A DNA stretch of 64,000 bases from contig CP085825.1 in NCBI GenBank assembly GCA_020809705.1, forward strand, positions 7,440,001-7,504,000. The letters are read 5' to 3'. A program made the position numbers and the translations under genes. This DNA is from Calonectria ilicicola. Its lineage: Eukaryota > Ascomycota > Sordariomycetes > Hypocreales > Nectriaceae. Numbering within the stretch: the first letter of the stretch is position 1; the number at the start of each line of letters is the position of its first letter. Below, piece after piece: positions 44,461 through 64,000 of this stretch. Below the pieces are notes generated by a model. That model did not search any database and was not told where the DNA came from. It was given only the letters and a program-made list of their open reading frames with translations.

Positions 44461-45549
44461 ATGCCAACTAACAAACCCCGCTGCCTAGAACGGGTTTTGC
44501 TCGCGCTTTGTTGTATCCCAATAAACCAACTAGACGACGATGAATCTTGCAATCAATTACCTTTAGTTGCTGTTTCCACGAGCAACAAATTCGAGTCGAT
44601 ACCAATCAATAACTCTACTAAGAATGAGTTCTCGATTAGAGTTGACACCGAGTTTACTTACCAATCCAATACAATTAAAAGTCGACTAGAATACCCTCGT
44701 CCTGCAACCTCGCCATTCACAATGGAAAGGAATATTTGCATCGGAGATAGATTTCACCATAATCGACCAGCATCGGCTTCTTTGACACCATTTGCACCTA
44801 TTTTATCAGAGTCATACCGAATCAACTCTGGTTCGCCACCCTCCACAGCGGAGCCAATTCTTCCTCCAGCTCAACTTCGCTTGCTGGAGTCGTTTGAAGG
44901 TTTCCCTCTTGGAAACAAGGTCTCTGATAATCAGGCTCATCCAGCTCCGAACGACTCACCCGAGTCTCATGTACTGGTTTATAGCCCGGAAGATAATAAG
45001 GGAGCACCGGGAAATGATCGTGCAGCGTCGCTCACTAAGATTTCAAAAATACCTTCAATATATCAGTCATTTTCTTCGTCGCCAACAAACCTGGAGCCAA
45101 CTTTAGCTCATCCGACAGCTCGATTCCAATCATTCGACCGTCCGAAATACTTCTCTCCTTTATCATTCCACTTTCCTCGCAAGCAACCGGAATCCACGCG
45201 CGAATCCGTTTGCAACATGGACGATAATTTATCATATCATTCTATACCATCAATTCTTACCAAGCAAAACAATCCAGATACACGGCCGTTATCACCTTCT
45301 CTGCCAACAATACTTTCACCACCACCCCGAAAAAAAGACATTCTTCAAATATCAACCCTAATTGGTCCTAATCCCAAAACCAATATGAACATCCAGAAGG
45401 ATTCGGTTATAATTGGTTCTCGTCCATCCACAGCAAACAGTAGCCTTCGAAGAACTATTTCGATAGCCAATTCACGAAATAGACGACATAGTCCCTCCTG
45501 GGTTTGGAGAGATAAAACACCCACTGTGAACGAGCTGATTGGGGCCTGA
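44461..45549 (+). CDS. Pro/Ser-rich hypothetical protein, 3' part displaced by an insertion
   Basis: Open frame of 362 residues from the ATG at 44461. I do not recognise a family. Composition is Ser/Pro/Asn-rich with many short motifs such as RPASASLTPFAP and LPTILSPPPRKK, the look of a largely disordered protein. The first 25 residues have two Cys (LALCCIPINQ) but no clear signal peptide. The last 19 codons, after RNRRHS at 45492, lie in what appears to be inserted DNA. The same 14 bp and the same reading frame recur at 46706-46719 and continue for 49 acidic codons (SDWFADDEA, LLEEYEDLD) to a stop at 46869. The ancestral protein would thus have had about 393 residues. The present product has lost its acidic C-terminus, if it is made at all. 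Confidence 0.55.
   Translation: MPTNKPRCLERVLLALCCIPINQLDDDESCNQLPLVAVSTSNKFESIPINNSTKNEFSIRVDTEFTYQSNTIKSRLEYPRPATSPFTMERNICIGDRFHHNRPASASLTPFAPILSESYRINSGSPPSTAEPILPPAQLRLLESFEGFPLGNKVSDNQAHPAPNDSPESHVLVYSPEDNKGAPGNDRAASLTKISKIPSIYQSFSSSPTNLEPTLAHPTARFQSFDRPKYFSPLSFHFPRKQPESTRESVCNMDDNLSYHSIPSILTKQNNPDTRPLSPSLPTILSPPPRKKDILQISTLIGPNPKTNMNIQKDSVIIGSRPSTANSSLRRTISIANSRNRRHSPSWVWRDKTPTVNELIGA
45479..45492 (+). repeat. Left 14-bp direct repeat (candidate target-site duplication)
   Basis: ATAGACGACATAGT, identical to 46706-46719. It flanks the 1213-bp insertion on the left and lies in the coding frame as AGA CGA CAT AGT. Confidence 0.75.
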
Positions 45550-46705
45550 AGAGCGTTTTTATTCAAACTATGGCTTAGACTGGGCTATATTCCTCCCTAG
45601 CACGTCTTCGTGTTGGATTAATATAATCCATAGCCGTTGTTGTGCCTGCAATAGCCAAGTTATTGATGGAAGGCATCATTTCCTTCCTTTTACCCCAAGC
45701 TGCAACACAGCCTTTCCCAACCAGGCTGAAGAACCAATCAATAGCCTTACCCCCATAGCGGATAAGGGCCTCCTTGACAATTTCAATAGCAACACTTTTC
45801 ATGATGTTGCTGAATGTGGCTTCATCCTCCTCCTTTTGGCAGGCTGTTCAGTTGATTGGAGGCATCGCGGGCGGTGGGTATGTGAGCCGCTGAACGTCTA
45901 CGCTACCGAGTGAGATTTTAATCTTTGCCAGTTGGTTTGTTTGTTCGTGCGCGTGCAGCTGTTGCTCGAGGTATGTTAGCTCTTTGTGAAGAGGAGCGAT
46001 GTTGTGTGCTGTGGTGTGTGGAGCTCCTTACAGCGGAGGCCGTGTTGTTTGTGATTGACGTGCGAATGGATCGACGACGTTGATATCAGTCAGAGGCAGA
46101 GGCAGAAGAAGTGCGTTGAACGTTCGCACAAGTCTTCTTGAAGGTGTGAATTGAGATGACATCTTCAGTGAAAAATCCGCTTCTTTTATCTGCAGATTCA
46201 GATACCTCTTTGGCCGCATTTCTAGGTTTTCAAACATCTGTTTGACTTGAAGGCATTCAGACTTCTGCGTTCCCTTGGAACCGCTGTTATGACTGCTGTT
46301 GTGTGGGCCCGTTCCAAAGGTTGAAGAAGCTTTTCACCCAACCGGCTGAACACAACGGTATTGTTAACTCTAACGTTGGTTGTGTCAAAACCTTCATCGT
46401 TACATGACTCATCCAACCGAGTAAGTGTTTTTATTGGATCTGGATGTTCCATGATTCTAGAAGTTTACTATTCAGGAGGGTCGATCAGAGGTTGTGGTAA
46501 GGTCACAAGTGGTGAGCACATATACCAATATAATTGACTGGTAATAGCAGCCTATGCATTTACTTTTGGGTATTTTGGTTCATTGGTTCCAAGCCTCACA
46601 CCATTACGCGTGTTCAGGTAAAAACTCTTCAATTGTCTAGTTATTTCCTAAGGCTAGGGTACTTCGGCCTTGTAGTGCACCTGCATTAATAAAAAAAAAA
46701 ACTCG
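45493..46705 (+). mobile_element. 1.2 kb insertion with poly(A) end and 14-bp direct repeats (non-LTR/retroposon-like)
   Basis: A 1213-bp segment bounded by identical 14-mers (45479-45492 and 46706-46719). Eleven A lie at 46691-46701, almost touching the right repeat. No terminal inverted repeats are visible. Poly(A) plus a long direct repeat is the usual signature of target-primed reverse transcription, as for LINEs, SINEs and retroposed transcripts. The 59 bp before the A-tract resemble 13451-13509, again followed by A, so the end belongs to a repeat family. No reverse transcriptase frame is visible, so the copy is truncated or non-autonomous. The most protein-like frames inside run on the opposite strand (45575-46452) and are broken. 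The insertion falls in the coding frame of the Pro/Ser-rich gene starting at 44461. Confidence 0.6.
45575..46452 (-). pseudogene. Degenerate minus-strand coding sequence inside the insertion
   Basis: On the minus strand a 76-codon frame begins MEHPDPIKTLTRLDESC (46452-46222). Another frame overlaps it (from 46237) and runs to 45575, broken only by one TAA near 46030 and one TGA near 45849. Segments such as KELTYLEQQLHAHEQTNQLA (coiled-coil-like), EEDEATFSNIMKSVAIEIVK and EALIRYGGKAIDWFFSLVGK look like true protein. The pieces suggest one gene of about 290 codons damaged by a frameshift and two stops. I could not remove these with canonical introns. I recognise no family. Its direction is opposite to the poly(A) end. 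Confidence 0.35.
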
Positions 46706-46719
46706 ATAGACGACATAGT
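46706..46719 (+). repeat. Right 14-bp direct repeat (candidate target-site duplication)
   Basis: ATAGACGACATAGT, identical to 45479-45492, preceded by AAAAAAAAAAACTCG. Confidence 0.75.
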
Positions 46720-46869
46720 TATGGTGAGAGCGACACGTTAAGTGATTGGTTCGCAGATGACGAGGCCACACCACAAGTACAAATGTTCAGAAACACACCA
46801 ATGGAAATGTTCACCTCGGATAAAAAGCCGATGACTTTCCTTCTGGAGGAATACGAAGATCTAGATTGA
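46720..46869 (+). pseudogene. Orphaned 3' part of the Pro/Ser-rich gene
   Basis: 49 codons plus TGA, in the same frame relative to the 14-bp repeat as the upstream gene (offset 1227 bp, divisible by three). It is acidic, with SDTLSDWFADDEATPQ and FLLEEYEDLD. It has no start of its own. Best explained as the former C-terminus of the gene beginning at 44461. Confidence 0.6.
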
Positions 46870-48239
46870 CAAATTTCCATCGCATATCAATTTTTCTCAG
46901 TAAAACAATATTTCAAAATAGATTCATTACTTAGACACCGATATAGAGATCATCCAAACACTACTTCAAAGACACTAGCACTAAAAAACTGCTATACGGA
47001 CCAATTTGATAGAGCGAATTATTATGTACCAAATTTATTTACACCATTGTAATGGGGAGCGTGGGTTCGAACTCTCGGCCTTTTGAAAAATTGGCTTTGG
47101 TCGGCGGAATATTCAGTCCGGCTACAACACCAGTCTTAGTGATAAGGAGGTTCCGGTCTCAACACAGGAAGAGGACCAACACACCACCATCAACAGTTCT
47201 TTTCACTAGTTTTGATGCTTTCTTTTTGACTGATTGTTTGATCTACTTGCCTAGGTGATGTTCATGATTTTATTTAATTTCATTGCGTCGAATTTTATTT
47301 GTTTTCCCTCCCTATGAGTCGTTGACCGATCTCGCGCCTCTTTCAGCAGCCGTTGCAAATAACTGACGTTTTTGCCTTTTCAGGCTGTGTGCGGTTTATG
47401 ATACTTCCAACTCCGCTCCATTTAATCATCCTAATCTGTATCGTAAGCACGATTTTGATTTGTGACCTGATGCGTGATGAGGGGATCATGTGGATGTACT
47501 TAGTACAACTGCTATAGGGTAGTCGGGACCTTCAGTTAGTTGAAGAAGGAATCAACCTTCTTATACCCACATTGAATAGTCCCTAGTGACCACCAATCGC
47601 ATCATGATCTTTGCTCAAGTTTTAGTAATGATCAATTTTGTGGTTAGACACAAGGACCAGCCATCAAACATACTTGAGATGAAAGTGTCTTAAGCACGGA
47701 TGAGACTAACCGGGCTCAGACCCGTGTGATAATTTGGCAGATACGCGCACAGTTCAAGTGCACCGAGCGCTGCAAGTAAATCCGGCGGGAATGATTTTAG
47801 TGCAATAACCCATTGTATCAGAATTATGTGGCTGAATCAGCTTGGCATGAAAATCAAGTTATATTGACCACTTACTATTACGTAGGCATTGGGATTTCGA
47901 ATGCATAATTTAGGGCTTATGGAAGTGAGATCCTGGGGGGTTTTTTTTAATAAAAAACCTCAATTAGGGTGTTATTGAGAAGTTTAACCGCCTGCGTCCA
48001 AAAGCAATAATAAACCATCCCAGAGACAAAGTTTCCGCAAAGTAGAATTGATCAAGCATATTCAATCTCATACTCCGGGACCCTATCATCCCAAGACTTG
48101 AGGCAAAAGCTCAATCCAACCTTCCGCTGGCTAGTACCTACTACAGTAGTGCTAGGAACGCGATAACCCGTACCAAGATCGGATACGCCCCAGAAGTGTA
48201 ACACTTTGTACATCAACTAAACTACACTGCAATTACAGC
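46870..48239. other. Intergenic region, no gene seen
   Basis: About 1.4 kb of moderately A+T-rich DNA with short frames only; it includes a CG-containing tRNA B-box-like string near 47065 that does not fold as a tRNA. Confidence 0.5.
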
Positions 48240-52406: not shown

Positions 52407-55400
52407 ATGAGCACCAGCCAAGTCTTTGTATTTGGCGACCAGACCGGTAACTTTGTCACCGGACTTCAGCAGGTTCTTCTTGACCGAAGCAATCCACTAC
52501 TGGTCTCATTTGTCGAACGATCATACAAGGCATTGAGACAAGAAGTCCAGCTTTTACCGGCAACTGAACAGCACTTCTGGCCATCATTCACAAGCATCCA
52601 GGAGCTCCTGGTCAGATACCAAAAGGTTAAGCCAAATGTAGCACTTGAGAGCGTGCTTTCCTGCCTTTACCAGCTATGTTGCTTTATCAAGTATGCCCCC
52701 CCTTTGCATCAAAACAAGCAGCAGAACTTTTTTTTAACATTTCCAATTAGATCTTTTGGACGTGAAAACCGCTTCTACCCCTCTGGGCCTCACAACCATG
52801 TTGTCGGTCTATGTGTTGGTTCACTGGCAGCGGCTGCTGTCAGCTCATCGCAGTATCTCACTGATCTCTTGGTCACGGGTGTCGCCGCTCTCCGTGTTGC
52901 AATGAGAGTTGGACACTTCGTCCACCGGGCAAGCTTTCAATTGGACGCCCAGAGCATAGACTCGACCGAGTCATGGTCATACATTATCCCCCCCAAGCAC
53001 CAGGAGGATGTCATGAAAGCGATCAGCCAAGAAAAGGTATGCGTCACTGTGGCTAAATAGCACCCCTTTTGATATTTCTCGTCCTAACAAGTATCTCTGT
53101 AGCTTCCAAAGTCTAGAGTTCCCTATGTCAGCGCCGTTGGAACCCAAACCATTACAGTGAGCGGACCTCCAAGTGTCCTCCCCCGCCTTCTCCGCGAAAC
53201 CTTGCCATCAACCGTCCCTCTGATTTCTGTCCCGGTACACGGACCCTACCATGCACCCCATATTTTCTCATTATCCGATGTGGACCACATCCTTAGCGAT
53301 TTCAGTGCCCTGAAGGAGTTTAGACCAAGGCTGAGTGTGCTGCGCACCTCGCCCGGGCATGTTGAGCCGGCAGGCGACTTTGTTGCGCAGCTTCGCGAAG
53401 CAGTTCAGGATATTATCCTGAGGCAATTAGATGTGACTCACTTGACGGCGGAGATCACCAAGCTTGTGGCTGACGCTTCATCTCCATGCACAATCGTGCC
53501 CATTTCCAGTGGAGCTGGGAAAGGCATTGTTGCAGCTGTCCAGTCAGCGACTGGACAGACCTGCACCATTGACAACAGTATTATGGATGCAGTCAGTGCG
53601 CATACAACTATTACAAGGGCATGCGGTCCATCTGGAAGACCACAAGACTCCAAGATTGCCATTGTGGGAATGTCTGGAAGATTCCCAGATGCTGCCAACA
53701 TTGACGCCCTGTGGGATCTACTGTACAAAGGTTTAGATGTTCATCGGCCTATTCCAGCAGACAGATGGGGCGTGGAATCGCATTACGATCCTACAGGTCG
53801 TCAAAAGAACACCAGCAAGGTTCTCAATGGCTGCTGGATTGACGAGCCCGGTCTGTTCGACAGGAAGTTCTTCAACATCTCCCCAAAGGAGGCTCAACAA
53901 ACTGATCCTGCCCAGCGACTGGCTCTCGCCACTGCTTATGAGGCTCTTGAGATGGCTGGTATCGTTCCCGATCGAACACCTTCAACACGACGTGACCGTG
54001 TGGGAGTGTTCTACGGTGCGACAAGTGATGACTGGAGAGAAATCAACAGTGCTCAGAACATTGACACCTACTTCATCCCAGGTACGGTATCCCAAATTTG
54101 ATTAGTTTCAGTGTGAAATATATCTAACAATCAACACAGGTGGTGTCAGAGCCTTCACCCCAGGCAAGCTCAACTACTTCTTCAAGTTCAGCGGACCCAG
54201 TGCAAGTGTCGATACTGCCTGCTCTTCAAGTCTTGCCGCCATCAACATAGCTTGCAATTCATTGTGGAACAACGACTGTGACACGGTTATTGCCGGTGGC
54301 ACAAACATCCTCACCAACCCCGACAACTTTGCGGGCTTGGACAAGGGCCATTTCCTGTCGCATACTGGTATGTCTTGTTTTTTCCCCACCACATGGATTT
54401 TTGTATTGACATCAATTTCAAAGGAAACTGCAACGCCTTTGATGATGCTGCAGATGGATACTGCCGAGCCGATGGCATTGGCACGGTTGTTCTGAAGCGG
54501 TTGGAAGACGCTGAAGCTGACAATGACCCGATCCTTGGTGTGATCCTGGGTGCATACACCAACCACTCTGCCGAGTCTGTGTCAATTACACGACCCCACG
54601 CAGGAGCCCAGCAGTACATTTACTCTAAGCTGTTGACTGAGTCTGGAATCAACCCTCACGACGTTGGCTACGTGGAGATGCACGGAACTGGAACTCAGGC
54701 TGGTGATGCCACCGAGATGAAGTCTGTCCTCGATACATTCGCTCCCGACCACGCCCGTGCTGAGTCGCAGAGTCTTTACTTGGGCTCAGTCAAATCTAAC
54801 ATCGGCCACGGTGAATCTGCTTCCGGTGTCATTGCGCTGATCAAGGTCCTCCTCATGATGGAGAAGAATGCCATCCCACCCCACTGTGGTATCAAGGGAA
54901 AGATCAACCGGAACTTCCCTACTGATCTCAAGGAGCGCAACGTGCACATCGCATTCAAGCCTACAGGCTGGGACAGGTCTACTGCTGTTAGTGGCACACG
55001 CCGCGCAATGGTCAACAACTTCTCTGCAGCTGGAGGTAACACTGCTCTGCTGATTGAGGATGGTCCTTTGCCAACACAATCGAGAGAGTCCAAAGATGCT
55101 CGCACCCACCATGTTGTGACTGTCTCTGCAAAGTCTACCACTTCTCTCAAGAACAATCTCCGAAACCTGAAGGAGTATGTGAAGCAGGGCCAGCAGGGAG
55201 CCGACTTCCTAGCCAAGCTCTCGTACACTACCACAGCACGAAGAATGCACCACACTTTCCGTCTAGGTATGATTGCTCAAGACGTCGACTCTTTAATTCA
55301 ATCCATCGACAAGGCCATCGAGCGACAAGACATCACAAAAACCAAGACTGTTGTTCCCAACGTCGGCTTCGTCTTCAGCGGTCAGGGCGCCCAATACTCA

Positions 55401-58400
55401 GGAATGGGCAAGGCATTCTACGAAAACATCTCTTCCTTCAAGTCAGATGTGTTGTCTTTCGATGGAATCTGTGTTTCCCACGGCTACCCATCCATCCTGT
55501 CTGTCATTACCGGAGAAGCAGATCTCCAGAATGCTTCTCCTCTTGTTTCTCAGCTGGGCACTGTCTGCTTGCAGATGGCTCTGAGCAACCTCTGGATTTC
55601 CCTTGGTATGAAGCCAGCCTTCGTTATAGGTCACAGTATTGGCGAATACGCCGCCTTGTACACCGCTGGTGTCTTGGCTGCAACAGAAGTCATTTATCTG
55701 GCCGGAGCAAGGGCCCAGCTCCTAGAGGCCCAATGTGAAGCTGGCACACATGCCATGCTTGCCGTGAAAGCCCCTCTGGCACAGTTCCAGCAGTTGTTCG
55801 ACCAGACCCCACTTGAAGTTTCTTGCTTCAACGGACCCAAGGATATCGTTCTCGGTGGAGAAGTTGCCGCCATTGACGAGTTGGCCCAGAAGCTGGCTAG
55901 CGCCAATATCAAGGCTACTAAGCTACATGTGCCATTTGCTTTCCACTCTGCCCAAGTTCAGCCAATTCTTGACGACCTCCAGAGTGTTTCCAGTGGTCTC
56001 ATGTTCCGTGCACCAAAGATTCCCGTTGTGTCCACACTCTTGGCTCAGATCGTTGGACCTGACGACTCCGCCAGCTTCAACCCTGAATACATCTCCCGTC
56101 ACTGCAGGGAAGCAGTCAACTTCAGTGGCGCCATCCAGAAGGCTACCGACGAGAAACTTATTGTCGCGGATACTCAGTTTATTGAGATTGGACCTCACAA
56201 TGTTTGCTCGATGCTACTGAAGGGCAACATTGGACAGACCGCCAATGTGGTTCCTTCGCTCTCTCGCCAGGAGGATGGTTGGACAGTGCTGACCCGCAGC
56301 CTTGTCTCGATCTATGAGGCCGGTCATGCCATCGACTGGAACCAGTTCCACTATGACTTCAAGGATTGCCACGAGGTTCTCCGCCTGCCAAGATACAGCT
56401 GGGATAACGAGAATCACTGGATCCAGTACATCAATGACTGGACACTAACCAAGGGAAATGCACCTGCCACAGCCGTCGTAAGCACGGCCCAAAAGGTCCA
56501 TGACTTCAGCACTTCTTCTGTTCACCAGATTGTCCAAGAAACCGTCGATGGTCCTATCTTGACACTCATCGCTCAATCTGACTTGGGCAGCCCATTGCTC
56601 GCTGAGGTCGCTCAGGGACACAGAGTCAACGGAGCCAAGCTTTGCACTTCGGTATGTTCTATATTTAATATTATCTACACGTCACAGAAACTAATATTTG
56701 ATAGTCGCTGTATGCCGATGTTGCATGCACTTTGGGACAGAGGGTCCTCGACAAGCACAAGCCGGACCTCGCAGGCTACTGCACTGAGGTTTTCGGCATG
56801 GCAATTGATAAGCCTCTCATCTTGAAGGAGGAAGGTCAAACCTTGTTCAGAGCTGAAGTGACCTACGACAAGAGCACACTCGCCGCTAAAATGTCCATTT
56901 ACAGCGTTGACTCTACTGGACGCAAGACCAACCACCATGCAAACTGTGGCCTTCGTTTCGAGAACCCCAACGTCTGGATGGAAGAATGGGACCGCACTCA
57001 TCACTTGGTTGATAGGAGCATCGAATGGCTCGAGAAGAGACAAGAGCAAGGATTTGACACCTCCTTCACCAAGGGCATGGTGTACAAGCTGTTCTCCATT
57101 CTGGTAGACTACCACGACGAATTCAAGGGTCTTCAGGATGTCATCCTCAACAGTGATGAGTATGAAGCTACTGCCAAGGTCAAGTTCCAGTCCAAGGAAG
57201 GCAACTTCTTCCAACATCCTTTGTTCATCGACAGCTGCGGTCAGACCACGGGTTTCCTGATGAACGGACACCAGAAGACTTCCATGGATCAGGTGTTCAT
57301 CAACCATGGATGGAGGTCTATGAAACTTGCCAAGCAGCTCAGCTACGATGTGACCTACCGCACCTATGTGCGCATGCGACCCGTCGATGGAACCAAGTAC
57401 GCGGGTGATCTTTACATCATTGAGGATGGTGTTATTGTTGCCGTCTTCGGAGGAATGACTGTAAGTTTTACACGGCCACCCACTTGAACCAAATGCTAAC
57501 CTTTCCCAGTTCCAAGGCGTTCCACGACGTGTCCTTGACACCGTCCTGCCACCTCTGAATGCTAAGCGGTCTAACCCAGCAGCCCGACCAGTTCCTGCAG
57601 CATCCCAGTTCAAGTCCGCTCCAACTCCAGCTGCAGCAACTCTGCAGCCCGTGCCTGCACCCGCCACGAGCGCCAAGTCTCAGATGAAGCCTCTGCTAAA
57701 TATTTTGGCTGATGAGATTGGTCTTGAACTCGACGCCCTTACCAGCGATCTTTCCTTCATAGACTATGGTATCGACTCATTAATCTCTCTTACCATGGCC
57801 GGCAGAATGCGCGAGGAGCTTGGCCTAGATGTCGAATCGGCTATATTCACAACATGCCAGACACTTGGTGACCTGCAGAAAGCCCTGGCACCTCAGATGT
57901 CAATCTCCATTGAAGCCCCTGCACCCCCACCTATTCAGACTTTCGAGCCCGCACTTGCTGCACCTGCTGCACCCGCTGTAAATGCCCACTCTCAGATGAA
58001 GCCGGTGCTAGCGATTTTGGCTGAAGAGATTGGTCTTGAAATCGACACCCTGACCAGCGATCTCGTTTTCACAGACTACGGTGTTGATTCATTGATCTCT
58101 CTTACCATGGCCGGCAGAATGCGTGAGGAGCTTGGCATGGATGTTGAATCCTCCATTTTCACAACCTGCACTACTATTGGTGACCTACAGCGAGCCCTTA
58201 TCGGTGAGGTTTCGTTTGAAGTCCCAACCCATTCCAGCACTTCTTCTGAGCCAGACACCGCGACAAACATCACCACGCCTTCTGAGACAGAGAGCATCGC
58301 AGATGTCAAGGGACAAAAGTCTAGGGTCTTGACAAAGACCCTGTCACAATACCAAGCTACTTCTGTCCTCCTCCAAGGCAAGACAAAGCAGCATGACCAC

Positions 58401-59156
58401 ACGCTGTTCTTGTTCCCTGACGGATCCGGTACTGCCAGTAACTACGCCAGCATCGACGCCGTTCTCCCTGATAGCGTGCTTATTTACGGCTTGAACTGCC
58501 CCTGGCTGAAGGATGCTGAACCCCTTCTTGAGTTCGGCTTGCAAGGCTTGACCAGCTTGTACGTCGCCGAGATCCGCCGCCGACAACCCCATGGTCCATA
58601 CAACTTTGGAGGCTGGTCAGCTGGTGGTATTTGCGCCTACGAAGCTGCAGTCATGTTGGCCAACCAAGGCGAGGTGATTGAGAACATTATCCTCTTGGAC
58701 TCTCCCAGGCCAATCGGTCTCAAGAAACTGCCACCTAAGCTTTTTGAGTTCTTGACCGCTAGTGGAATCTTTGATGCCGGTTCAGAAAAGCCACCTGCCT
58801 GGTTGATCAAGCATTTCCTGGTCTTCATTGAGGCACTGGACAAATGGCAGCCCGTCCCATGGCCTGCGGCCGTTCGCACCGGTGCGGAAGCACCCAAGAC
58901 ACACATTCTTTGGGCAGAGGACGGAGTCTGTAAATCTGAATCCGATTCCAGACCTGAGTACTCCGACGATGACCCTCGGGAAATGCAATGGCTGCTTGAG
59001 AACAGGACTGATTTCAGCCCCAACCGCTGGGATCTTTTGATCCATGGCGCTGAGATGGTTATTGAGCGTATCCCAAATGCCAACCACTTTACGATGATGA
59101 AGAAGGGAGAGAACAGCAAGGCACTAGCAGCCTTTTTGAGGGGGGTCTTTTCTTAA
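52407..59156 (+). CDS. Non-reducing iterative polyketide synthase, SAT-KS-AT-PT-ACP-ACP-TE
   Basis: Seven exons: 52407-52690, 52751-53036, 53103-54081, 54140-54367, 54424-56651, 56705-57460 and 57510-59156. Together they encode 2135 residues, a normal length for this class. Order and catalytic residues: SAT with Cys116 (GLCVG); KS from about 374 with Cys544 (DTACSSS), HGTGTQAGD and NIGHGES; malonyl AT with Ser997 (GHSIGEY); PT with His1325 (GHRVNG) and Asp1511 (FIDSCGQ); ACP1 Ser1677 (YGIDSL); ACP2 Ser1781 (YGVDSL); TE with Ser1957 (GWSAGG), LLDSPRP and NANHFTMM. All domains look functional and no reducing domain is present, so it should make an aromatic polyketide from malonyl-CoA. KS blocks such as [20 protein letters not shown] and [17 protein letters not shown] resemble the wA/naphthopyrone-type enzymes. 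The product is unknown. The FAD monooxygenase at 48283-49827 is the likely tailoring partner. Confidence 0.95.
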
Positions 59157-59939: not shown

Positions 59940-62900
59940 GACCTTTTGTTTCTTTTTTCTGAGTAATGGCGAGGAAGAGATAGATTATGTTAATTATAAG
60001 ATTATGATGATAGTAAAATATTATGATTATAGTTTCTTAATTGCTTTAATTAAAGCTAAGGTAATTAATTTTAATTTGGAAGTATAATGTATAAATCCAA
60101 TCTTTAATTATATTAAAATATTAAATGCTTTTTAGTTTATTTCTTAATATATATATTGTAGAAAGTATTAGAATTTAAGTTTATTTTGCTATTGTAGACC
60201 TTATTGAGATAAAGCTATTAGAGGAAATTTATAATATAAAAATTATTTATATTATAGCTCTTAGCTTAGTTAATTATTAGAAAATTTAATATATATGAAT
60301 TGTAAAAGACTATAGAATTTAGAATTATATAATATATATAATCTATGCCAATAGGAAGCTACTATTAAATGCATAAGGCATTTAATATACCAACTTTTTA
60401 ATAATGAATATTCGATTTATATATTTTGTTTATAATTATTTATAAGTGATTTATATACTCTTTATAATAACTACTATTTAAAAGCCCTAATAAAAGTAGA
60501 TTATATATTAACTTTAATAATAAATCAAACCCTTAAAGAGTAGCCTTTATAAATAATACAAGCAATACCCTTATAAGACCTAATATTAATTAATATAAAC
60601 CTAAATTAATATATCCTTACCAAATTATATTATTTCTTCTAATTTTATACCTAGATCTTATAAGCTAGGTATATCTCTACCTTTAATAGAATGGAACTAA
60701 TATTCCATCTTTAATAACTTTATTATTAATTACTTAAGATAGATTATTATTAATTATATAATAATTATATCTTTCTCACTTTAGAGTATAATCATTTTAT
60801 CAATCTTAGTTTACTTACTATACATTTTACTCTACACCCCTCTTATTAATTAAGAAAATAGACTAATATTGCTTAAATGGAAAAAGAAAGCTCTAATATT
60901 GCCACTATATTCATCTACTTTTTAATAATGGCTTAATTATATTAATTTACTTATATCTACCTTAAATTATTAAATTAATAGCTTTTTCTCATTTTCTATC
61001 CTTAGAACTACTGAAAGTTTTATTTATTCTTAGCTACCTGTAGATATTATTATAACTAGCTACATTTATTATAAACTTTTAAACTTATTATTAAGTAAAT
61101 ATAATATATGCTGGTTTCTATTTAATAAGATTATATAGAAAAGTACAACGAATTCAAGAAATATACTACTAGAAGCTATAGAAAAGGTCTAATAGCTTCT
61201 TAAGAATTATAACCCCTATATTAGAACTATATGATATATAGTAACTACTATTTAATCTAATATAATACCTATTACTATTAAATTAAGAGATTTCCTAGCT
61301 AATAGTAAGATTGCTATAATTATTAATATTTAAAACCTTAGCAAGATAAATCCTTATAAAGTTCTCTTTTTCTTTATAAAGGATAAAGTCAATTTATTAA
61401 TATTCTTTTATAATATTATAAGCTTCTTCAATATCCACTACTATTTCTATATAGCACCTTTGGCTAGGGAATATCTAATCTACATACCCTTAATAGATTA
61501 TTATACTAGGTAAATAATAATAAGTAATTAGAGATTAATAGCATTTATAATCTCACCTAACTTTAATAATACTATAATATAATTCTTAAAGAATCCTAAT
61601 TTTATTAATTTAATTAACTTACCTTAGAATATATAGTAGATATATTTTTATATATTAAAGACATTAAGTTATAATATTTAAAAATAAGCTATCTAACTTA
61701 AGCATCTGGTCTTAATTTAGATAATATTAATTTTAGTATTAATAGATTATAATATACCTTACTATTAAACTTTTTAGGCTCTTATGCTTAGGCATCTAGT
61801 TAAGTAGCTGATGCTCTTGCACTTGTATAAGAATTTAGAAAACTAATATTCTTTATAATTATAATTATAAACTCTCAATGGTTAGAAATCATATCCTAAT
61901 TACAACCAAATTAGCACTTTATAGAAGCTATAATAGTCATCTGTAGGGCATTTTATATGCAATTCCAATCCCTTAAGAGTTTTATAAAAAACCACTTTAG
62001 GTGAGCTATATATATAATTAGTATTATTAAGTTCTAAAAGTATGACTTGCTATATACATATATATTTCTTAAAATAAGTAATATATTAATTTATTAATAA
62101 TTATATATAAAATATAAGATTGATTACTAATTATATTTTAAGTATTTCTAGAATTAATTATAAAAGCTCTTAATTTAATTATATTTATAGAATTATCTTA
62201 CTTAACTATAGATATATTTTTATATAAAATAATACTATATATAAATATCTATAGCTACAATTACCTAAATAACACAAGATTATACTATAATAAAGATAGA
62301 TATTATAGATTTAGTTTTTCTCAACCAATATCAGATCATATAACAATCAACTTCCAAGGTTATATCTATTTTTAATACTAGCATAAAGAAGATACCTAGA
62401 TAGTCTTATATATACCCTCTTTAATATAATATATAAATTTACATATTCACATTAATATATACCTCTCTATCTATATTTTTATATATCTCTTTAAGTATTT
62501 ATTTAAAAGGCCAGACTATACTAGCTTTTGGTTGTAAGAAGATGTAAATAATAAAATCTTAAATGAATTCCATGATTATATCTCCGGCTAATATCTTTCT
62601 TTAATAGAAATTACTTATTAACTTCTCTCTTTCAATATTATCTTTAAATACCCCCTATATAATATCTTCTAATATATCTTAAAAATAAGTAATTAAGCTA
62701 GTTATAATGCTTAATAAACTAATCCTTTATAAGTGATCTTTTATAGTACTTTTAATAATCTAAATAATAGTACTTACTTTATCTAACTTACTTAAAGTTT
62801 TATATATAATATTACTATAATATATAGATCTTAGATTATACTTTAAAAGATAATTATATATTTATTTATTATATAGAAATAAAATATAGGTTATAATAAT

Positions 62901-64000
62901 AAATATTTATAAAAAGATATAATACTAAAGTAATTATATATATCTATAATATACCTCTATATATTAGAGAATTATTTTATTTATATACTTTACTTTAATA
63001 TTAAATTATTATTACTTTTATAGAATTATAAATAATTAATAATATTTAGTATATAATATATTAAGAAATAATAATTACCTTAAGTCTCTTCTAGAATATA
63101 TCTAAAGCTACTTACACTATAAAGAAGGCTATAGTATCATATTATTAACCTACTCAATTATAATTCTTATTTACCTTAATTATTTTAGATTTTCTTTTTT
63201 CTATAATTACTCTTTAGAATTAATTCCGTACTCTAATGTCCATAAACTTCTTACTCTACTACCATAAATAACAAGCTATATCATATACTTTACAATTAAT
63301 ATCTCAAATCTTAAAAGATTATAGAATATTATTAAATTAATTTAGACTTTTAAAACCTTCTTAAATAGAAGAAGAACTTAATATAAAACTATTTATATTT
63401 TCTAATCAATAATAAAAGCTTTTCTCAAATAACTAAAAAGATTATAATAAATTGAATCTAGAATAGTAAAATGTATTTGATACAATTTACTCTACAATTT
63501 CTCACAGCAGCTGCTTTTTTATTGACAGAAAGGCTAGATGAGGTAAGACCTTCTTAGTTAATATATTATATAATTATATTTAAGGAGAGGGAGGTATTAT
63601 TTATATTACTGGCTTAATAGTATTAAATATAATTTTTTACAAATATAATTATATAGTATACTTTATATTCGGAATTCTTATAAGAGAAAATTTATCTAAT
63701 CTAATATCTTCCATCCGATTTAATTCTAGGTAAGCTTCTATTATTAGATATATATTTTTTATTATATAGGAAGAATTATTTATAATAAATAAAGTAGTTA
63801 TTAAGTATATAGAAGAGCTTTTACAGAATATAATAGAGAATGATCATTTATTTAGATATAAAACCTTTGTTGGAATTGGGGATTTCCACCAAGTTACACC
63901 AATTACCCTATATATAACTATTACTACTGCAGTCTTTAATAGCTCAATCCAATCATCCTCACTATAGTTATATTTCTGGATTTTATAACTTTCAACTTTA
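59940..64000. repeat. A+T-rich island, probably RIP-decayed repeat DNA
   Basis: From about 59.94 kb to the window end the sequence is overwhelmingly A and T with very frequent TA steps. No frame of 60 codons or more is open on either strand. C survives mainly outside CA contexts, as expected after repeat-induced point mutation (C to T at CpA). A few less decayed patches remain (about 63485-63545 and 63870-63950). I could not identify the original elements; decayed retrotransposons are likely. The block continues beyond the window. Confidence 0.75.

Follow-up and report, generated by a model that had tools for sequence, protein, structure and literature searches.

A retroposon family in the fungus Calonectria ilicicola probably templated by the spliced RNA of an intron-dense locus

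Introduction

Processed pseudogenes and other retrocopies lack the introns of the parent from which they were copied and have target duplications; master-gene retroposons are exemplified by the BC1 RNA gene and the ID elements, BC1 being a short unspliced RNA polymerase III transcript. Here we describe a family of insertions in the ascomycete Calonectria ilicicola that recalls both of these systems, starting from a 1,213-bp insert that interrupts a host open reading frame (ORF) in a 64,000-nucleotide stretch of DNA, henceforth the window (assembly GCA_020809705.1, contig CP085825.1, positions 7,440,001 to 7,504,000, forward strand). The members of this family are inserted with a duplication of the target, correspond intron-exactly to a locus on contig C10 (the C10 locus), represent independent isoforms, and possess fixed ends and a conserved 3' structure. 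We consider it very probable that they constitute a retroposon that is non-autonomous, inserts by target priming, and takes as its template the spliced transcript of an intron-rich master locus, with the insert in the window representing one event. The splicing of the insert from an intron-dense locus is the main point of this report, and one that is invisible to a reading of the window only.

The nearest described phenomenon is that of the spliced integrated retrotransposed elements (SpIREs) of human L1, which, in the account available, arise by splicing within the 5' untranslated region (UTR) or between the 5'UTR and ORF1 of a coding long interspersed nuclear element (LINE), and are for the most part regarded as dead ends (PMC5860796). 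The present family is like the SpIREs of that account in that transposon RNA would have been spliced before insertion and the integrated copies record the splice events, and unlike them in that 22–24 introns are removed, the RNA looks noncoding, and splicing is seen in every one of the six full-length copies found. It further differs in that no origin from LINE RNA was found, the LINE ORF beside the C10 locus being the only LINE protein compared with the loci. As in processed retrocopies, the introns of the parent are absent and target duplications are present; however, the parent is without evident protein coding and, unlike in those retrocopies, there is an encoded A-run and CTCG with hairpins and no added poly(A) tail.

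Structured 3' ends are described as common in LINEs and short interspersed nuclear elements (SINEs) with stringent template recognition (PMC3747384). Like the SINEs of stringent LINEs, as far as that account describes them, the family is non-autonomous with a structured, conserved 3' end, whereas its length (1.1–1.2 kb), its spliced precursor, and the lack of any Rfam match or of a same-tail LINE among our searches set it apart. The insert differs from an autonomous LINE (e.g., of the Tad clade) in having no reverse transcriptase (RT) or endonuclease coding. A C10-like source resembles the BC1/ID system in that one source locus would feed dispersed copies, but is unlike BC1 in its length of 2.8 kb and its more than 20 introns. 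In the literature searched, whose coverage of subscription journals and preprints is thin, no fungal family of spliced noncoding-RNA retrocopies is reported. The family would present a retroposon whose template is a product of the spliceosome, and a natural archive in which the isoforms spliced from one intron-dense RNA are recorded molecule by molecule in the genome.

The insert and the interrupted host frame

The features of the insertion (window coordinates, apart from the last entry) are as follows:
44461..45492, plus strand: first 344 codons of the host open frame, Pro/Ser-rich, with its ATG at 44461
45479..45492, plus strand: left target-site duplication, ATAGACGACATAGT
45493..46705, plus strand: retroposon insert of 1,213 bp, equivalent to the C10 sequence minus 22 introns
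45493..45522, plus strand: conserved 5' end, CCCTCCTGGGTTTGGAGAGATAAAACACCC, probably the transcription start
45878..45931, plus strand: GTATGT..CAG segment, exonic in the window copy and removed as an intron (C10 543-596) in the other five full-length copies
46650..46688, plus strand: conserved two-hairpin 3' module (AAGGC/GCCTT, then TAGTGC/GCATTA)
46691..46701, plus strand: A-run of 11 A
46702..46705, plus strand: terminal CTCG, the next base being the first of the target duplication
46706..46719, plus strand: right target-site duplication, ATAGACGACATAGT
46720..46869, plus strand: displaced 49 codons and stop, in a frame matching the host ORF
C10 2345811 down to 2343044, minus strand: intron-bearing relative, outside the window, 2,768 bp counted to CTCGAT

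The original prediction had read this region as a gene split by a recent retroposon insertion of the non-LTR (long terminal repeat) type. The identical 14-mers that it placed at 45479-45492 and 46706-46719 are present as claimed, and the host frame does run to a stop 19 codons inside the insert and continue, in the matching frame, at 46720-46869 with 49 codons and a stop, for a total of 393 codons. The run of eleven A that it noted is also found, at 46691-46701, but is not directly beside the right 14-mer, because CTCG (46702-46705) stands between them. As the window holds two further exact 14-mer pairs no more than 1.5 kb apart (8975/10058 and 27537/27804, leaving out of the count the AT-rich block from ~60.4 kb and the duplicated region at 57.7–58.1 kb), the ATAGACGACATAGT pair by itself is within chance; it is identified as a target duplication because other family members carry duplications of their own. 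These, together with the 14-bp duplication and the three substitutions that separate the insert from C10, bear out a recent non-LTR-type insertion.

The first piece of the host protein retrieved 0 homologues at E ≤0.001 among 1,665 candidates, and the host frame matched no Pfam family. As the homologue search gave none, we infer the original C-terminus from the continuity of the frame alone, and the insertion would have deprived the host protein of it. The possibility that the insert is an intron of the host gene was rejected, as it begins with CCCTCC instead of GT.

Relationship of the insert to the C10 locus

Aligned to C10, the window insert resolves into 23 matching blocks, the shortest of 5 nt and the longest of 254 nt; the two sequences differ by three substitutions, and the A-run of the insert is longer by two A. 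In this spliced alignment all 22 gaps begin with GT and 21 of them end with AG. The resulting exon-exon junctions of the insert, computed as 45492 plus the coordinates in the spliced copy, lie after the following window positions:
First half: 45585, 45839, 45950, 45955, 45976, 45991, 46025, 46042, 46058, 46065, 46074
Second half: 46093, 46119, 46132, 46170, 46201, 46314, 46367, 46425, 46452, 46515, 46613

Across the six full-length copies, viz., the window copy (L001), L002, L003, L004, L005, and L007, the splice-rewarding alignment yields 56 distinct introns, with 22 to 24 per copy, and 140 intron uses, 135 of which are GT-AG. Because this first alignment rewarded splice sites, a splice-blind realignment was made, wherein the window copy has 21 of its 22 gaps placeable at GT-AG, and in the four copies without heavy mutation 87 of the 93 junctions are so placeable, versus a chance rate of 0.87% per junction obtained from random placements with equal ambiguity. 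Of the 22 introns removed in the window isoform, 19 contain a YTRAY branch-like motif ahead of the acceptor (counted from the intron list, with no chance rate).

The differences among the isoforms come from intron retention, cassette exons, tandem acceptors, and the use of alternative donors, which often lie four bases from each other. In the window copy, the 54 nt that the other five remove as an intron (C10 543-596) are retained, and the exon 1121-1147, carried by those five, is skipped. The exon set of no full-length copy is contained in that of another, with ordered pairs differing by 18 to 169 C10 positions; since a copy of a spliced copy could only lose positions, the six copies are separate read-outs of an unspliced template. 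C10 is the only locus found in which the introns are contiguous (17 of 17 candidates scored; 40 of 101 in a second search). A divergent stretch of L016 (79% identity) keeps the intron 827-881, and weaker matches at L025, C5:6405612, and C11:3500919 hint that parts of introns persist there as well. The idea of a second source with introns, on C5, was entertained and rejected, just one retained intron being seen at that place.

Copies of the family and their target duplications

The genome searched comprises 69.9 Mb in 12 contigs, and all our copy counts for the family are lower bounds. A search for further copies, which the original prediction had proposed as a check, recovered 75 matched pieces (query 45400-46900; 40 of 109 candidates scored). 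There are at least 45 five-prime ends in the genome (last 29 nt of CCCTCCTGGGTTTGGAGAGATAAAACACCC, ≤3 mismatches; window copy and C10 included) and at least 69 three-prime ends (pattern, ≤3 mismatches), with zero matches to the reversed control patterns for either end. L002, L003, and L004 have the same CCCTCC start and the same A-run and CTCG end in the midst of different flanking repeats. Each of the six full-length copies has its own target duplication of 13–15 bp, those of the five outside the window being ATGACTGAGATAAT, ATGATGGGATCCAAT, ATAATATTTATAA, ATAAACAGCCTAG, and ATAAAATATATTA. More generally, an exact repeat of at least 10 nt of the right flank is found upstream, at offset 0, for 16 of 33 collected 3' ends (a set that includes the C10 locus), versus 3 of 1,056 mismatched-flank controls.

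The insert ends, CCCTCC... and ...CTCG, are not inverted repeats of one another. Some copies are truncated at the 5' end, with L015 and L013 retaining just 58 and 72 nt, respectively, of the 3' end between their duplications, and a second subfamily has both ends in common and a different middle. L003 (C6:614701-615863), like the window copy, interrupts a frame, in this case one of 122 + 381 codons on the opposite strand.

The three-prime end

The ~40 nt before the A-run fold as two small hairpins, with a consensus energy of –9.37 versus a mean of –1.51 (sd 1.57) for shuffled columns, none of the 200 shuffles being as low. This consensus used 26 of the 33 ends, the seven excluded being the C10 end and six that were short or odd. 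The search expression matches 26 of the 33 ends, and in these pair five of the first stem is C-G (13), T-A (5), T-G (4), or a non-pairing combination (4); an automatic alignment of 18 3' pieces was not used for these pair counts because its gaps misplaced the first arm. The first A-run ranges from 4 to 17 A across the 33 collected ends and numbers nine in C10. CTCG closes 29 of the 33 ends, with AT following in 25 of these 29, although both frequencies are overstated because 22 of the 33 were collected by a pattern requiring CTCGAT. Since the A-run and CTCG are encoded in C10, the run is not an added poly(A) tail, and the characterization of the insertion as poly(A)-ended has to be qualified accordingly. 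The 3' tails of L020 and L021 (C7:655802 and C7:2755825) partly repeat CTCGA (AAACTCGAAACTCGAT; CTCGAGAAAACTCGAT), akin to slippage at LINE tails.

Coding potential and RNA families

The longest complete ATG-started ORF of the spliced window insert is antisense and codes for 76 aa, and the window isoform, the only one read, has no complete sense ATG ORF of 40 aa or more. A protein-coding parent is further disfavored by the alternative donors, whose 4-nt spacing would put any frame out of register. The score of a short antisense ORF against Pfam PF07410 (18.4 bits) is below the 27.1 cut-off, and we take this match as chance. An Rfam scan of L001, L008, L026, and L091 (E ≤0.5) produced one sub-threshold match, outside the insert, and no tRNA-, 7SL-, or 5S-derived head, A and B boxes being outside the reach of that scan. 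A small nucleolar RNA host gene was likewise considered and rejected, given the absence of an Rfam match in source or insert.

Proposed mechanism and alternative explanations

We propose that the C10 locus, which is presumably transcribed, would make a noncoding-looking RNA from CCCTCC to or past CTCGAT, out of which the spliceosome would take 22–24 small introns in a new combination each time. A LINE-type RT/endonuclease, probably acting in trans, would recognize the conserved 3' hairpins; the target would be nicked before AT, and reverse transcription would start at the CTCG end adjoining the A-run. The cDNA would then be inserted with a 13–15-bp duplication, and in the window event this would have cut the host open frame. 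Under this proposal C10 would be the actual source and not merely its closest surviving relative.

Several points weigh against this reconstruction. Both the transcription and the splicing of C10 are predictions from the DNA sequence. Five of the 140 intron uses, from four distinct introns, have a non-AG acceptor (C10 positions 999-1048 in L003, 999-1050 in L007, 1148-1198 in L003 and L005, and 2258-2319 in L001); three of these four introns end in ATAT, 7–9 nt upstream of AG acceptors in other copies. At two exon positions, 35 and 2140, C10 has a base that none of the four little-mutated copies shares. A target duplication is also missing from it: the 14-mer that follows its CTCG is unique in the genome, and no 6-mer is common to the 65 nt around its left end and the 45 nt around its right end. 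On account of these exon differences and the missing duplication, C10 is possibly a sister of the real source; it may be the source, or its nearest relative found. Seventeen of the 33 collected ends lack an exact 10-nt duplication at offset 0. No mobilizing enzyme was identified, with three of the 150 RT matches listed occurring within 10 kb of a located family end, viz., C10:2347076 (a LINE ORF beside the C10 locus), C10:4051281, and C7:5258383. That LINE ORF has no Pfam endonuclease match, and five compared relatives start 105 to 234 residues before the stretch matched on C10.

Among the alternatives, C10 could be an ordinary element that gained many introns, in introner-like fashion, after its copies had dispersed, in which case the window insert was never spliced. 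This would fit with C10 being the sole contiguous intron-bearing copy found, and the presence of introns alone gives no chronology. However, the template must have contained intron sequence, because there are segments that are exonic in one copy and intronic in another: 543-596 is exonic in the window copy and removed in five, and 1121-1147 is exonic in five and removed in the window copy. With the recurrence of alternative donors 4 nt apart and the persistence of intron 827-881 in the divergent stretch of L016 adding to this, we hold such a history to be highly improbable. We would accord a somewhat better, if still low, likelihood to there being several source loci or active copies, such that both a C10-like master and existing copies gave rise to new ones. 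The second subfamily with the same ends and a different middle points in this direction, as does the non-identity of C10 to the copies, including a T at position 513 that, among the four little-mutated copies, is present only in the window copy and L002 (L003 and L005 have the C10 base). Yet none of the six full-length copies is derivable from another by further splicing, and no second contiguous intron-bearing locus emerged from the searches (17/17, 40/109, and 40/101 candidates scored).

The target duplication, the A-rich 3' end, and the 5'-truncated copies are also what an ordinary LINE or SINE insertion, unrelated to splicing, would leave behind. Such an origin is nevertheless contradicted by the junction statistics, inasmuch as GT-AG placements exist, without any reward for splice sites, for 21 of the 22 gaps in the window copy, and the insert has neither visible RT coding nor an Rfam match; we therefore give it scarcely any credence. 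The fixed ends might bring to mind a DNA transposon or a rolling-circle element, but the ends are not inverted repeats, the duplication varies from 13 to 15 bp, there are 5'-truncated copies, and the introns are absent. This origin, which is contradicted by the intron-exact relation to C10, is the least credible of all those considered.

Reverse transcriptases in the vicinity of family members

The LINE beside the C10 locus is a 936-codon frame with an RT domain (Pfam RVT_1, E 2e-23) whose end lies 205 bp upstream of CCCTCC. At the DNA level it occurs once in the genome, and among 91 loci compared it matched just its own two (L091 and L008). A search with 504 residues of its protein recovered 52 proteins, the best with 53% identity. 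The idea that the insert is the 3'UTR of a long autonomous LINE was rejected on these grounds, i.e., that the C10 LINE is single copy, is without an endonuclease match, and is confined to two loci, and that the 14-mer after CTCG is unique. The RT match at C7:5258383 contains stops and lies 7.8 kb from a family end. The one at C10:4051281, which is on the opposite strand and also has stops, lies between family 5' and 3' ends in C10:4048013-4054531, and is possibly a nested insertion. Separately, RT domains are found ~0.5–3.1 kb from contig ends (C5:703-1293, C11:532-1125, C9:5218932-5219522, C11:4171287-4171877, and C7:5676210-5676803), and these are candidates for telomere-associated retrotransposons.

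Mutation pattern of the copies and a possible role for the introns

L001, L002, L003, and L005 differ from C10 by 2–3 substitutions each. L004 and L007 have 50 and 113 C-to-T/G-to-A differences from C10, respectively, and one other difference each; 41 of the 50 and 92 of the 113 are in a CpA/TpG or CpG context, as expected of repeat-induced point mutation (RIP). The flanking G+C content is 10% for L004 and 17% for L007. The mutations of both concentrate in the first 347 nt, the part that is common to all six isoforms uninterrupted: in L004, 42 of 161 C/G sites are mutated there versus 8 of 362 in the rest, and in L007, 62 of 161 versus 51 of 353.

RIP efficiency is described, in the account consulted, as dependent on three properties of the matched repeats, viz., their length, identity, and periodicity (PMC12543289). 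We tentatively raise the idea, which we ourselves consider doubtful, that the source is intron-dense as an adaptation to a RIP genome, with the retroposon using the spliceosome as armor. The source would escape RIP, which would be lethal to a normal repeat, because its interrupted exons of 5–254 nt offer no long unbroken homology to the spliced copies, and the variation in splicing would curb homology among the copies as well. The mutation pattern bearing on this idea comes from two mutated copies only, in which position in the element is confounded with homology length. The family raises a testable question, namely whether a mobile source can be shielded by introns against a genome defense that senses homology.

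Other features of the window

The terminal part of the window (60001-64000) is AT-rich, with 19–21% G+C versus 42–56% in the remaining 2-kb bins, as expected of RIP-mutated repeats. Repeats spaced 312 bp apart at 57678-58110 fall within the frames at 53103-59156, which we take to be a polyketide synthase with two similar carrier-protein segments. The window additionally has a frame resembling sphingolipid C9-methyltransferases, with 674 matches at E ≤1e-120, the best among the 120 listed being from Pestalotiopsis with 75% identity.
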